Below, one piece after another: positions 5,356 to 11,223 of a stretch of DNA of 13,487 bases; the first letter of the stretch is position 1; the number at the start of each line of letters is the position of its first letter. The notes under the pieces were generated by a model, which made no database searches, had not been told where the DNA came from, and saw only the letters and a program-made list of their open reading frames with translations. The position numbers and the translations under genes are program-made. The stretch lies in the NCBI GenBank assembly GCA_022361315.1, contig JAKSBB010001056.1, forward strand, positions 1 through 13,487. Reading direction: 5' to 3'. The DNA comes from Desulfobacterales bacterium (GTDB taxonomy: Bacteria; Desulfobacterota; Desulfobacteria; Desulfobacterales; Desulfobacteraceae).

Positions 5356-5434
5356 TTGTGGACCCGAATAAGCCCCGGGGATTCACACATCACACATTTA
5401 GATGCCTAAATTTATAGGAAGAAAGGAAAATACC

Positions 5435-5884
5435 ATGAAAGCAAACAGAAAAGAACTCATCGCCATCTTCGTCGCAATCACCCTTCTGGCTGGAACAAGC
5501 CTCGCTGCCTGGGCCTCCTACACCCCGGAACGCCCCTTGGCCGTTCACTCCAAAATTAGTGCCGCTCAAACCCCACCTCTTGATTGGCTGTTTGAGGGTG
5601 TCGCACCAAACCGTAACGTGAAGACTACTATTGGTACCGTTCAGTTCCGTGCGGTTAAAAATGACAACCGAAATAAAAGGTTCTTTTCAGCACACCCGGC
5701 CTCATTGCGGGGATTTTCAGAAAAGACCCCACTGGATCTGTTGTTCAACGGCGTCACTGCGGATAACGGGAAAAACGTTGTTGCACCCGGTGTCATCCTT
5801 CCACCCAAAAAACAGAATCTTAAAAAAGTACGGTCTTTAATGCTCGAAAAAACACCGCTGGACCTGCTGTTTATCGGTGCATAG
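5435..5884 (+). CDS. Exported protein with three TPLDLLFxG(V/A)-like motifs, unknown function
   Basis: This 149-aa protein is not one I recognise. The start at ATG 5435 is preferred because AGGAAGAAAGGA lies just upstream; an in-frame ATG at 5402 would put that site inside the gene. Residues 1-28 form a Sec signal peptide (Lys/Arg N terminus, hydrophobic IAIFVAITLLAG, likely cleavage after AWA). The mature part has three copies of one motif: TPPLDWLFEGV (46-56), TPLDLLFNGV (98-107) and TPLDLLFIGA (140-149), the last forming the exact C terminus. Linkers are basic and Asn/Lys/Pro-rich, with no Cys after the signal. It is divergent from a LysR regulator and followed by its own intrinsic terminator, so it is a single-gene transcription unit. 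The repeats could be short binding or anchoring helices or processed peptides; neither is shown. Confidence 0.72.
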   Translation: MKANRKELIAIFVAITLLAGTSLAAWASYTPERPLAVHSKISAAQTPPLDWLFEGVAPNRNVKTTIGTVQFRAVKNDNRNKRFFSAHPASLRGFSEKTPLDLLFNGVTADNGKNVVAPGVILPPKKQNLKKVRSLMLEKTPLDLLFIGA

Positions 5885-7517: not shown

Positions 7518-9188
7518 TTATTGTTTTGTATCTGCCAGGAATCTGTTCAGGGCCTGGAGATAAGACTTGATGGAGGCTGAAATGGTGTCCTCATCCACGG
7601 CCCTGCCGATCCATACCGGATGTGAGAGGTTGTAGTCCACCTCCTTTCCGTTCTTGCTCAGTACCACCAGGGCTTCTGCTTCGCTGGAGTGGGTCCTGCC
7701 AAGGTTGCTGGGTTCATAAACCACCAGTTTGGGCTTTCTATCCCCGAGCCCCACCACATCGTCAACGGCACTGAAAACGGCATTGATGGGGCCGTTTTTA
7801 CCCATGAAGGCTTCACCGGTCACCTTTTTGCCGTCAATGACCAGCACCACCTGTGCCTGGCGGACGGTGGAATCGGCAAACTTGTTAAAGGCGTAATCCA
7901 CGAATTCGATGTGGGGAGCCTCCGTATACCTGAAATCATCTCCGATCACCCTTAATTCCCTGTCGCCGTAGGTGATATCATTTGATTTGATCACCGGCAT
8001 GATATGTTCCCGCACAAAGGCTTTGTCAAAATCAAACCCCAGTTCCGAGAGCCTGGCACTGACCCCGGCCACCCCGGTAAGTTTTGTAATCTGGTGGGCG
8101 TTACCGGTCCAGCCGATATCCTCCGGGGTACAGGGCAGGTAGATGAATTCGCCGATGGCCTTTCCCTTTTTATCCCCGTCGGAATGGACGCCGGAGCCGT
8201 GGCGCAGGGCGTTGGGCCCGATACCCGGGGCGTTATAGGGGATGGGGACACCACTTTCCTTTTCAATGAGTCTGGCCACGGCATTGGTCTTGCTCAGGTC
8301 AAACCCGGTAAAGAATTTGCGCTTGTAAACCGGTTTCAGGACCAGGTTCATGATCACCTGCTCAAGGGGGGTGTTGCCCGCCCGCTCTCCCAGGGAGTAC
8401 CAGGAACCTTCCACCTGGCGAACCCCCTGCTCAATCACCTCCAGGGTATCGGCCACGCTGACCCCGAAGTCGTTGTGGGCATGGAAACTGAGCATGACAT
8501 CCTCGGTACCCGGCACAAGTTTTTTAAAGTAGTCAACCGCCTCACCGATTTTGATTTCGATGCCCTTGGCAACGGTGTGGGGGATATTGATCACATCTGC
8601 CCCTTCCCTGATGGCGCTGCCGTATATTTCAGCGATATACTCCTGGAGAAAACGGTACTCGGGGTTCAGGGACTGGGACAGGGCAAGGATGGTATTCTGG
8701 GCGGAGAACTCCACCCGTCCCTTGCCCTTCATCAGATCTTTGGCATAGGCCACCGCCCGGGATGCTTTTTCCACCTGTTCTTTGGGATCGGCGTTGTATG
8801 CCCGGATGGACGCCTCGTCGATATTGAGTGTAAAGACGTGGATGGTGGGGTTGGGATTGTTTTTCAGGGCCTCCCATGTCCTGCTGATATTTTCGAGGTC
8901 CATGGTGGTCAGCCCGCAGATATGGGGCCCCTGGACATTGTCGGCAATGTCCTTGACGGTGTCGAACTCCATGGTATTGGAGCTGGGAAACCCCACCTCA
9001 ACCGTGCTCACACCGGTTGTTGCCAGGTACTCGGCGATCCTGCGTTTTGAGTTTCCCTTAAAGGTAACACCCCCCTGCTCCCCGTCCCGCAGGGTGGTGT
9101 CAAAGATCTCGATTTCTTCTTTTGCACCGGAATCCCCGGTCCCCCGTTCCAATGTCCAGATACCCGCTTCGTCTCTTACAATGGTCAT
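7518..9188 (-). CDS. leuA: 2-isopropylmalate synthase (divergent LeuA)
   Basis: This 556-aa protein would condense 2-oxoisovalerate with acetyl-CoA, the first committed step of leucine synthesis. The catalytic TIM barrel shows FDTTLRDGEQ (29-38), VEVGFPSSNTMEFD, the metal-binding HAHND (His236, His238) and GERAGNTPLEQVIMN with Asn272. A communication region has GPNALRHGSGVHSDG, and the C-terminal LeuA regulatory domain (about 430-556) retains GKNGPINAVFSAVDD and ASIKSYLQALNRF. It is divergent: FSAQNTILALSQ stands where typical LeuA has a FSPEDA-like segment, and GSWYSLGERA differs from the common GTINGIGERA. Citramalate, homocitrate or Re-citrate synthase are the sequence-based alternatives, but the Leu-rich leader and attenuator directly upstream and the intact regulatory domain favour leucine synthesis. 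The start ATG 9186-9188 has AGGAG 6 nt upstream. No leuB/C/D is adjacent. Confidence 0.82.
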   Translation of the reverse strand: MTIVRDEAGIWTLERGTGDSGAKEEIEIFDTTLRDGEQGGVTFKGNSKRRIAEYLATTGVSTVEVGFPSSNTMEFDTVKDIADNVQGPHICGLTTMDLENISRTWEALKNNPNPTIHVFTLNIDEASIRAYNADPKEQVEKASRAVAYAKDLMKGKGRVEFSAQNTILALSQSLNPEYRFLQEYIAEIYGSAIREGADVINIPHTVAKGIEIKIGEAVDYFKKLVPGTEDVMLSFHAHNDFGVSVADTLEVIEQGVRQVEGSWYSLGERAGNTPLEQVIMNLVLKPVYKRKFFTGFDLSKTNAVARLIEKESGVPIPYNAPGIGPNALRHGSGVHSDGDKKGKAIGEFIYLPCTPEDIGWTGNAHQITKLTGVAGVSARLSELGFDFDKAFVREHIMPVIKSNDITYGDRELRVIGDDFRYTEAPHIEFVDYAFNKFADSTVRQAQVVLVIDGKKVTGEAFMGKNGPINAVFSAVDDVVGLGDRKPKLVVYEPSNLGRTHSSEAEALVVLSKNGKEVDYNLSHPVWIGRAVDEDTISASIKSYLQALNRFLADTKQ

Positions 9189-9246
9189 GTGTCACTCCTA
9201 TGTTTAATATGAAAAAAATTACACTTTAAAATTTTTGATTCTGGAC

Positions 9247-9288
9247 AAAAAAAAAGCCGTTATCTGCCCGGAGAGGGCTGATAACGGC
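9247..9288 (-). terminator. leuA attenuator: intrinsic terminator hairpin
   Basis: On the minus strand, GCCGTTATC (9280-9288) pairs with GATAACGGC (9256-9264); after one mismatch the inner GCCC/GGGC also pairs around a TCTCC loop, giving a 13-bp stem. Nine T residues follow (9247-9255). It lies between the Leu-rich leader ORF and leuA, 59 nt before the leuA start. The plus strand also has a T-run after the stem (TTTTTT, 9290-9295), so the hairpin could stop transcription in both directions. Confidence 0.9.
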
Positions 9289-9322
9289 GTTTTTTGTCAA
9301 TATTTATATACTGTTATGCCAT

Positions 9323-9403
9323 TTAACCGCCCCTTTGCCCGGAAAAGCGTAGAAGAGCCCTGCTTAGAAGTAGTAGGAACAGGTTGGTCAGGTTGGCATT
9401 CAT
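9323..9403 (-). CDS. leuL: Leucine-rich leader peptide of the leuA attenuator
   Basis: The 26-codon ORF begins MNAN, continues LTNLFLLLLSRALL and ends with GQRGG and TAA. It has eight Leu codons, four of them consecutive (CTA CTA CTT CTA), so charging of leucine tRNA would be sensed there. The peptide has no function beyond its translation. Its ATG overlaps the stop of a three-codon frame (ATG ACA CTG TAA, 9403-9414) that sits directly behind AAGGA; the leader ATG itself is about 14 nt from that site, so translation may start by reinitiation at TAATG. The leader lies between the glycosyltransferase gene and leuA, followed 34 nt later by the terminator stem. It was found by reading the leader, and is too short for ordinary gene finding. 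The similarity to known leuL is in design, not sequence. Confidence 0.82.
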   Translation of the reverse strand: MNANLTNLFLLLLSRALLRFSGQRGG

Positions 9404-9516
9404 TACAGTGTCATATTTCCTTATTAAAAAAATTACCTGGCAGTGTTCTATAAACCGGGGTAAAAGTCAACGTTAAATTTCAACAAATAATGGAAGCTTG
9501 CAAACCCGGGTACTGT

Positions 9517-11223
9517 TTATGGCAGATCTCCTGGGGCAACTTGTCTTTTTTCCGGCAGGTGATGCACCACCCCGAGTTTCAATAGCAGGCAGACCGCCCT
9601 GTGGTTGAGCGCTCTGCCTCTTGGGGTATCTGCTTCAATTATCTCTTTAACCGCGGTTGGTTTTGATGGGATTTTTTTCAGCAGCCGGGTCAACGTCTCG
9701 GGATCCGGTATGACCTGATGCGCGAACTTGACCATTTCAAGCCGAACCCGTTTTTGCAACGCTTGAACGGATCTGTCCGGATCATGTTCTGTTCTGGCAA
9801 TTAAGGTATCTTCTGTGACGGTGGCCGTGGGATAATGGACAAACCCGGTGAACGGGTCCATCCTGGCCGGCCAGGGCGTGGGGTGTGGCCGTTTTTGGTT
9901 CTCTTTGGCCGCTTTGGTCCTGATCTGCCCGAGATGCGACCAGAGGTCTTCATATACCGGAATAATGGCAGACCAGTCATAGGTTTCCCTTGCCCGCTGC
10001 CGGCCGGCTGCCCCCATTTTTTGCCGTAATTCATTGTCGTTGATCAAAGTGATGAACGCCCGGGCGGTTTCCCCGATGTCCACACCGGCATGCATGCAGG
10101 TGTGGCCGCAGTAGTGATCATAGGTGTCCACCCGGGTGGCGTATCTAAAGGCCAGGTCCCGGCTCAGGCCTGCCGGGGGCATGGTGGTGGGAATCCTGAA
10201 GCCGTCCGTGTTATGACGCACCGTATCTTTATAGCCGTCCCAGTCCGAGACCACCACCGGCAGTCCTGCGGCCATGGCTTCAACAGGGGTAATGCCGAAG
10301 GTTTCCTGGATATTGTCGGACAGGGAACAGAAGATATCCGCACCTGCCCAGGCTGTTATCCGCTGGTGAGGATCACGGCCATCCAGATGTACAACCTCAA
10401 TGGAGGGGCAGGCAGTCCCTGCCGCATCGTTGAACGCATTCCGGATATAATCATTGGAAAACCATCCGCATTCCACCAGTTTGATCTTTTTTTCTGTATT
10501 CCGGGCGGCGGTTTCAAGGGCCTGATACATGGCAAGGGGGTGGGCCTTGGCGTGAAAGCTGAGCCGGCCCATATACAATATCACGACAGTATTACTGTCT
10601 GCCTGAAGGGCTCTTCTGGCAGCGGCTTTCTGATCTGGGTCAAATTGAAAATCATCGGTGTTAATACCCAGAGGAATGACCGGTAGCTTAGGCAGAATCA
10701 CCCTTTGAATACCCAGGCGCTGCCGGAGCCTGTTGGCCTCGGCCTGGAGCAGTGCCGTCACATTTTGTTTAACGGCTCTGGAAGTGCAGATGATTGCATC
10801 CCAGGGCTCGACCGGTGTGGTGAGCCATCCGGTGACGGCATCCATCACACCGGCACTGCTTGTGGTATGGGTAATACCGCACAAGGACCATCCGGAAGGA
10901 TTGATAAGGGAGCGCAAATGGGCCTGGGTCCCGATATCCGGCCCCGGATAGAAGAGGGTGCCTGCCCCCGTCAGGTGGTAAAGGTTCTCCTGGGTGATGG
11001 CGGAAACCGGCTCAGTCCTGTATTCTCTTACCTTGGATTCAAATTCAGCGGCCTGGTCCGGGTGCTTGACGCAGCTGTAGAACGCGTCTGCCCGGGAATA
11101 CCTGAGGTAGCCTTTTAAAAAGGATTCCCCTGCGGCATTCCGGCCCATCAGTTTTTTACCCGAGGTGCTGTAGGCGTCCGTCTGGAAATAGATGGCGGCC
11201 CGTGTGTGTGGCTGGGGTGTCAT
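9517..11223 (-). CDS. GT4-like (GT-B fold) glycosyltransferase with C-terminal extension
   Basis: This 568-aa protein is soluble by sequence. The donor-binding half shows PVIPLGINTDDF (181-192), ILYMGRLSFHAKAHP (215-229), and the EX7E motif E307-TFGITPV-E315 within DNIQETFGITPVEAMAAG, followed by LPVVVSDWDGYKDTVRH. These are hallmarks of retaining GT4-type glycosyltransferases, which use nucleotide-sugar donors to build polysaccharides, glycolipids or small glycosides. About 130 residues beyond the usual GT-B end (from about 435) hold a Pro/Arg-rich linker and a helical segment (LTRLLKKIPSKPTAVKEIIE; NHRAVCLLLKLGVVHHLP) of unknown role. ATG 11223 lies 9 nt after the apbE stop, so the two genes form an operon. 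No other polysaccharide genes are present, so acceptor and product are unknown. Confidence 0.85.
   Translation of the reverse strand: MTPQPHTRAAIYFQTDAYSTSGKKLMGRNAAGESFLKGYLRYSRADAFYSCVKHPDQAAEFESKVREYRTEPVSAITQENLYHLTGAGTLFYPGPDIGTQAHLRSLINPSGWSLCGITHTTSSAGVMDAVTGWLTTPVEPWDAIICTSRAVKQNVTALLQAEANRLRQRLGIQRVILPKLPVIPLGINTDDFQFDPDQKAAARRALQADSNTVVILYMGRLSFHAKAHPLAMYQALETAARNTEKKIKLVECGWFSNDYIRNAFNDAAGTACPSIEVVHLDGRDPHQRITAWAGADIFCSLSDNIQETFGITPVEAMAAGLPVVVSDWDGYKDTVRHNTDGFRIPTTMPPAGLSRDLAFRYATRVDTYDHYCGHTCMHAGVDIGETARAFITLINDNELRQKMGAAGRQRARETYDWSAIIPVYEDLWSHLGQIRTKAAKENQKRPHPTPWPARMDPFTGFVHYPTATVTEDTLIARTEHDPDRSVQALQKRVRLEMVKFAHQVIPDPETLTRLLKKIPSKPTAVKEIIEADTPRGRALNHRAVCLLLKLGVVHHLPEKRQVAPGDLP

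Follow-up and report, generated by a model that had tools for sequence, protein, structure and literature searches.

On the minus strand of the window (the whole 13,487-nt stretch of DNA analysed, from a Desulfobacterales bacterium), a divergent LeuA-like gene, assigned through profile and domain matches (7518-9188, 556 aa), lies behind a glycosyltransferase gene of the same strand (9517-11223), and between the two stand a short leader peptide ORF and a terminator hairpin. The leader ORF (9323-9403; ATG at 9403-9401, stop codon TAA at 9325-9323) has 26 codons and encodes MNANLTNLFLLLLSRALLRFSGQRGG, with eight leucines and neither isoleucine nor valine, which bears out the claim of an earlier sequence-only reading that a 26-codon ORF with eight Leu codons precedes leuA. 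Leader codons 10-13, the candidate control codons, read CUA CUA CUU CUA (9365-9376), and a second Leu pair, CUU CUA, forms codons 17 and 18 (9350-9355). A three-codon ORF (ATG ACA CTG TAA, 9403-9414) overlaps the leader ATG with its stop codon at 9403 (TAATG), an arrangement in which translational coupling is possible. The range 9247-9414 given in that reading does contain the leader and the terminator; its upper end, however, is the ATG of the three-codon ORF, the leader ATG being at 9403. Elsewhere in the window, on the plus strand, a 160-aa ORF (5402-5884) with three TPLDLLF-G-type repeats (TPPLDWLFEG, TPLDLLFNG, and TPLDLLFIG) had no Pfam match.

The start signal of the leader ORF is weak. 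Spacers of 14 nt and 3 nt separate its candidate ribosome-binding site, AAGGA (9418-9422), from the leader ATG and from the three-codon ORF, respectively; the latter, which contains one Leu codon (CTG), is thus the nearer of the two to AAGGA. A possible -35 element, TTGACT (9465-9470), was placed by eye through alignment with the TTGACTT of related loci and is followed by no clear -10 element, and a simple consensus scan of 9150-9560 returned no minus-strand promoter-like site.

The leucine codons of the leader are unusual in both number and kind. Eight Leu codons among the 25 non-start codons would be rare at the Leu frequency of the window (p = 0.0015), and CUA accounts for four of these eight, as compared with 6 of the 358 Leu codons in eleven ORFs of the window (Fisher p = 2e-5). 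The related loci show the same bias, with CUA making up 29 of 69 leader Leu codons versus 4 of 406 in their own leuA genes. In the Salmonella leu leader, an exchange of CUA for CUG is reported to have lowered sensitivity (PMC1183508).

Past the leader stop codon by 34 bases begins a terminator hairpin (9256-9288; GCCGUUAUC-A-GCCC / GGGC-A-GAUAACGGC), whose tail of nine U (9247-9255) ends 58 nt before the leuA ATG. The 13-bp stem and nine-U tail that had been described for this terminator are present, with the qualification that the stem includes one A.A mismatch. The hairpin has a predicted energy of -23.2 kcal/mol (z = -7.6), matched by none of 200 shuffles. A simple consensus scan of 9150-9560, with its rule worded for loops of 3-8, reported no terminator-like site, and the mismatch in the stem may be why it missed this one. 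The 5' side of the terminator (segment 3, 9274-9288) can pair instead with an upstream strand, segment 2 (GGGGCGGUUAAAUGGC, 9318-9333), which includes the leader stop codon. The earlier reading had taken GGCATAAC, directly behind the stop, as the antiterminator; that sequence is indeed found at 9313-9320, where it overlaps segment 2 and offers an alternative, shorter pairing, but it makes up only a part of the antiterminator strand, and 9333-9318 is the better-supported choice over GGCATAAC alone because it explains more of the conserved positions. Farther upstream lies the core of a protector segment 1 (9353-9358); on ribosome-free RNA, it is predicted to pair with 9334-9329, joined by 9399-9394 and 9390-9386.

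Folding with competing structures, which had been proposed as a check, gave the antiterminator with a modelled ribosome on the Leu codons and lost it with the ribosome at the stop. In the window, the terminator arm was paired upstream with a mean probability of 0.82-0.83 at every Leu position tried, and in 11 relatives, with the ribosome on the last Leu pair, the corresponding values were 0.76-0.91 (first truncation); with the ribosome at the stop, they fell to 0.07 in the window and to 0.02-0.39 in the relatives (first truncation). Antiterminator and terminator therefore exclude one another in the modelled folds, and the ribosome at the stop masks the former, with the caveat that the shuffle control was weak: among 1000 shuffled spacers, 90 for the window, 31 for L081, and 152 for L085 paired the terminator arm as well as the native spacer did. 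Given that 90 of 1000 shuffled spacers equal that of the window, antiterminator folding by itself proves little. Without a ribosome, segment 2 of the window is predicted to be hidden in the protector, and upstream pairing of the terminator arm dropped to 0.16, and later to 0.02. In the relatives at the first truncation, the ribosome-free fold favored the antiterminator over the terminator in 10 of 11 (0.76-0.90; L089, 0.36), and the protector, predicted in the window, was not predicted in 10 of 11.

These elements suggest a mechanism of the classical kind. When leucine is short, a ribosome would stall on the Leu codons of the leader and leave segment 2 (9333-9318) free to pair with the 5' arm of the terminator (9288-9274), so that RNA polymerase would read through into leuA. 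When leucine is plentiful, the ribosome would reach the stop at 9325 and cover segment 2, the terminator would form, and transcription would end in the U tract. If the leader were not translated at all, segment 2 of the window is predicted to be held by the protector, and termination would again result.

The leader, segment 2, and the terminator occur together in all 11 relatives whose upstream DNA is complete (a twelfth relative locus, which starts inside the leader, is left out of this count). The leaders of the relatives are rich in Leu, Ile, and Val, have 26-30 codons with 4-10 Leu codons, and end similarly; their ORF lengths differ by multiples of three, with the frame kept in 11 of 11. 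The window has one extra base, which can be placed just after the leader stop. The alignment of related leuA leaders that the sequence-only reading had called for came out in its favor, with the leader and its Leu codons conserved along with segment 2 and the terminator (11 of 11 relatives). Its further expectation of covarying stems held clearly for the terminator across a wider family described below, and only slightly, in that wider family alone, for the antiterminator; within the 12 leuA leaders themselves, we found no covariation in either the terminator or the antiterminator, both stems being nearly invariant.

Two sequence features of the relatives deserve separate mention. A near-perfect inverted repeat (TTAACTTTAATTAAAGTGAA), possibly an operator or a 5' hairpin, is located just before the leader ATG and after a promoter-like TTGACTT..TATAAT in L082, L083, L085, and L088-L092; it is weaker in L084 and L086, and absent in L081 and the window. 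A GGAGGUG..CACCUCC hairpin, perhaps a transcription pause hairpin, is situated inside the leader ORF, past the Leu/Ile/Val codons but before segment 2, in L082-L092 and in many ilv leaders, and is absent in the window.

The joint conservation also bears on a simpler account, by which the hairpin serves only to end transcription of the upstream glycosyltransferase gene, the Leu-rich ORF has arisen by chance, and leuA is transcribed from a promoter located after 9247. The hairpin does lie on the same strand as that gene and 229 nt behind it, and the consensus scan of 9150-9560 found no minus-strand promoter, hence none before the leader either. Against it, the relatives keep the leader ORF, segment 2, and the terminator together, the leader contains rare CUA codons, and matches to the same element elsewhere in the order stand before branched-chain amino acid genes. 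We consider this account very improbable.

A second alternative keeps the leader functional but assigns it another mode of action, either as a translated small protein or by acting on translation or on Rho-dependent termination, instead of through a stalling-based choice of hairpins. The leader peptide is hydrophobic, a protector is not predicted in most relatives, and there are precedents in Streptomyces, where similar ilvB and leuA leaders reportedly showed no classical attenuator behavior (PMC1262725). Against this, the peptide letters vary across the leaders while segment 2 and the terminator stay constant, and the Leu and Ile content shifts with the genes downstream, a shift not required of a peptide with one set function. 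Another mode of action consequently appears improbable to us, and we retain ribosome-mediated attenuation before leuA, the mechanism first read from the sequence and now supported by the conserved parts and the modelled competing folds.

The protein under this putative control is divergent enough to miss the cut-off of the LeuA family TIGR00973 (276 versus 598.7 bits). It nevertheless comprises an HMGL-like domain and a LeuA regulatory domain (Pfam), and among solved proteins its best relatives are all isopropylmalate synthases. It belongs to a distinct clade, in that 31 of its best 120 database matches (the window's own protein included) are at least 77% identical and the next stands at 46%. 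A sample of 389 genomes from the order to which Desulfobacter latus belongs contained the clade in 12; it was present in 11 of 86 genomes of the family of that species and in 1 of 30 from that of G282. Among the 11 clade genomes searched, LeuB is encoded in all 11, whereas a canonical LeuA over the cut-off was found in only one; the divergent protein is thus likely the isopropylmalate synthase in the other ten genomes. The catalytic and regulatory domains, together with a leucine pathway needing the enzyme, are consistent with a predicted 2-isopropylmalate synthase function. In G282, canonical leuA follows an ilv attenuator (L163), and the divergent leuA has an attenuator of its own (L081).

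The leuA attenuator is not an isolated element. A covariance model built from the 12 leuA leaders (the window and 11 relatives) had matches at E<=1e-3 in 304 of the 389 order genomes, a number to be read as a maximum, given that the terminator alone can score 34-48 bits. Among 60 loci read in two batches, 59 stand before ilvD or ilvB, and L113, the remaining locus, corresponds to the leuA of G282; a complete leader with at least 10 Leu, Ile, and Val codons is present in 58 of the 59 ilv loci, the other one starting at a contig end (L155, a contig-end fragment, was judged by eye). A further 47 loci, at least one of them a repeat, lie before ilvD, ilvB, cimA, or leuA (L174 judged by eye, L183 by a separate check); the leaders of L188 and L197 are only weak ones started by TTG. 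In a draw across the phylum, 39 of 395 genomes matched the refined model; the 15 phylum-sample genomes whose loci were read are not in the order sample, which is itself a draw, such that they may still be Desulfobacterales. Genes behind the matches were named by sequence motifs, and in an NCBIfam check, all 14 proteins examined besides that of the window exceeded a fitting cut-off (five CimA, four canonical LeuA, two IlvD, two IlvB, and one IlvN).

This wider set allowed the stems to be assessed for covariation. From 71 loci, L115 was dropped (the 3' arm of its terminator was not located), and the remaining 70 collapsed to 58 distinct rows, in an alignment whose segments were anchored by motifs, which favors pairing. 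For the terminator, 94.2% of cells were paired and 6 of the 13 pairs showed double changes (34 cells), whereas slid controls reached at most 49.2% paired, with double changes in 3 pairs and 6 cells. For the antiterminator, 85.2% of cells were paired (controls at most 62.9%), and the double changes, which affected 2 of the 15 pairs and 6 cells, were barely above those of the slid controls (up to 2 pairs and 3 cells); here, the extra base puts the window row out of register (9 of 15 pairs).

No match at the Rfam gathering score, whether to the Leu, Thr, or other leader families or to the T-box, was obtained in the window or in the loci of six relatives, the sub-threshold scores being 19.1 versus 55 bits for Thr_leader and 27.4 versus 70 for mir-3660. 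Among the top-ranked literature matches, in a coverage that mostly excludes subscription papers, no title concerned branched-chain amino acid attenuation in Desulfobacterota. Vitreschak 2004 and Lopatovskaya 2010 reportedly deal with attenuation.

Across this family, the control codons of the leaders tend to match the genes of the operon, as judged from the predicted leaders and gene assignments. The Leu share of the Leu, Ile, and Val codons is 0.44-1.00 in the 12 leuA leaders versus 0.14-0.54 in 58 ilv leaders (rank test p = 4e-8, with relatedness ignored), and the window leader marks the all-Leu end of the series. Three mapped ilv operons (L163, L164, and L168) contain ilvD and ilvB, then cimA and canonical leuA, and leaders at five loci with cimA followed by leuA are mixed. 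Leaders before canonical leuA (L190 and L196) are likewise mixed, and the L190 operon also contains leuC, leuD, and ilvB. At four loci, the retrieved stretch contains cimA but no leuA motif, and three of their leaders are Ile-dominated (9/10, 10/12, and 9/11 of their Leu, Ile, and Val codons), as would be expected if they sensed isoleucine made by the citramalate route; the exception, L194 of G468, is mixed, with 10 Ile, 4 Leu, and 3 Val by hand count. The cimA leaders L185, L187, and L191 have 9-10 Ile and 0-1 Leu codons, and L192 is alike (only 1.5 kb was read around L187 and L192). Desulfobacter vibrioformis has (i) an ilv operon of ilvD, ilvB, ilvN, and cimA, whose leader contains 2 Leu, 7 Ile, and 5 Val and behind which the stretch examined shows no leuA motif, and (ii) a leuA leader of 10 Leu, 1 Ile, and 2 Val.

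Segment 2 and the 5' arm of the terminator are nearly letter-identical between the leuA copies and many ilv copies, from which we infer that the leuA attenuator probably derives from an ilv-type attenuator recoded towards leucine. The attenuators before leuA, ilv, and cimA could instead have arisen independently and be alike by convergence, with no copying or recoding; a leader tree is compatible with such a history, in that it is weakly supported and leaves the leuA leaders ungrouped, but the letter identity goes beyond what pairing needs, and we regard independent origins as rather unlikely.

In summary, we assign a probability of about 0.88 to the reading that the window carries a classical ribosome-mediated attenuator through which charged leucine tRNA is sensed and expression of the divergent leuA is set, as a member of a branched-chain amino acid family of Desulfobacterota whose leuA copy was probably derived from an ilv-type element and recoded. 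As for the family at large, we see roughly even odds for a broader proposal, namely that it is a family absent from Rfam whose codons have been retuned with the genes of the operon (Ile for cimA without leuA, all three for ilv-cimA-leuA, and Leu for stand-alone leuA). By this proposal, leuA would have gone from the ilv operon in Desulfobacter-type genomes, where a divergent leuA elsewhere has a leucine-shifted copy and the ilv leader only 2 Leu, a regulatory subfunctionalization readable in codons. If true, these readings would (i) widen the reach of leader-peptide control over branched-chain amino acid synthesis across a phylum of anaerobes that matter in the environment, (ii) provide a model for flagging leader peptides whose shortness lets them escape routine annotation, and (iii) supply a natural series (Ile-dominated, Leu-only, and mixed) for testing the recoding of a sensor after an operon change. 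The leader codons also provide a separate line of evidence on which substrate is used by doubtful LeuA/CimA paralogues, that of the window among them.

Among known systems, the closest counterpart is the leu operon attenuator of enterobacteria (the leuL leader), which also has a CUA-rich Leu leader, an antiterminator, and a terminator before leuA. The likeness to these circuits that had been drawn from the sequence holds for attenuation as such, but not for an isolated element, since the family also stands before ilvD, ilvB, cimA, and canonical leuA in many relatives, which makes the window copy its leucine-coded member. Unlike leuL, the window attenuator precedes a divergent, perhaps single leuA, shows no similarity at the Rfam gathering score (the two were compared through Rfam only), and has a protector that is not predicted in most of its relatives. 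Enterobacterial ilvL is a mixed Ile/Val/Leu leader before ilv genes, as are the leaders of the ilv members here, and the same reportedly holds for corynebacterial ilvB leaders; both differ in that they belong to a different phylum and in that the window copy is coded for Leu only. Similar leader-peptide attenuators before paralogous genes also occur in bacilli, where histidine leaders are reported to precede hisS paralogues, with His codons in both copies (PMC2965389), whereas in the family described here the control codons differ between copies.
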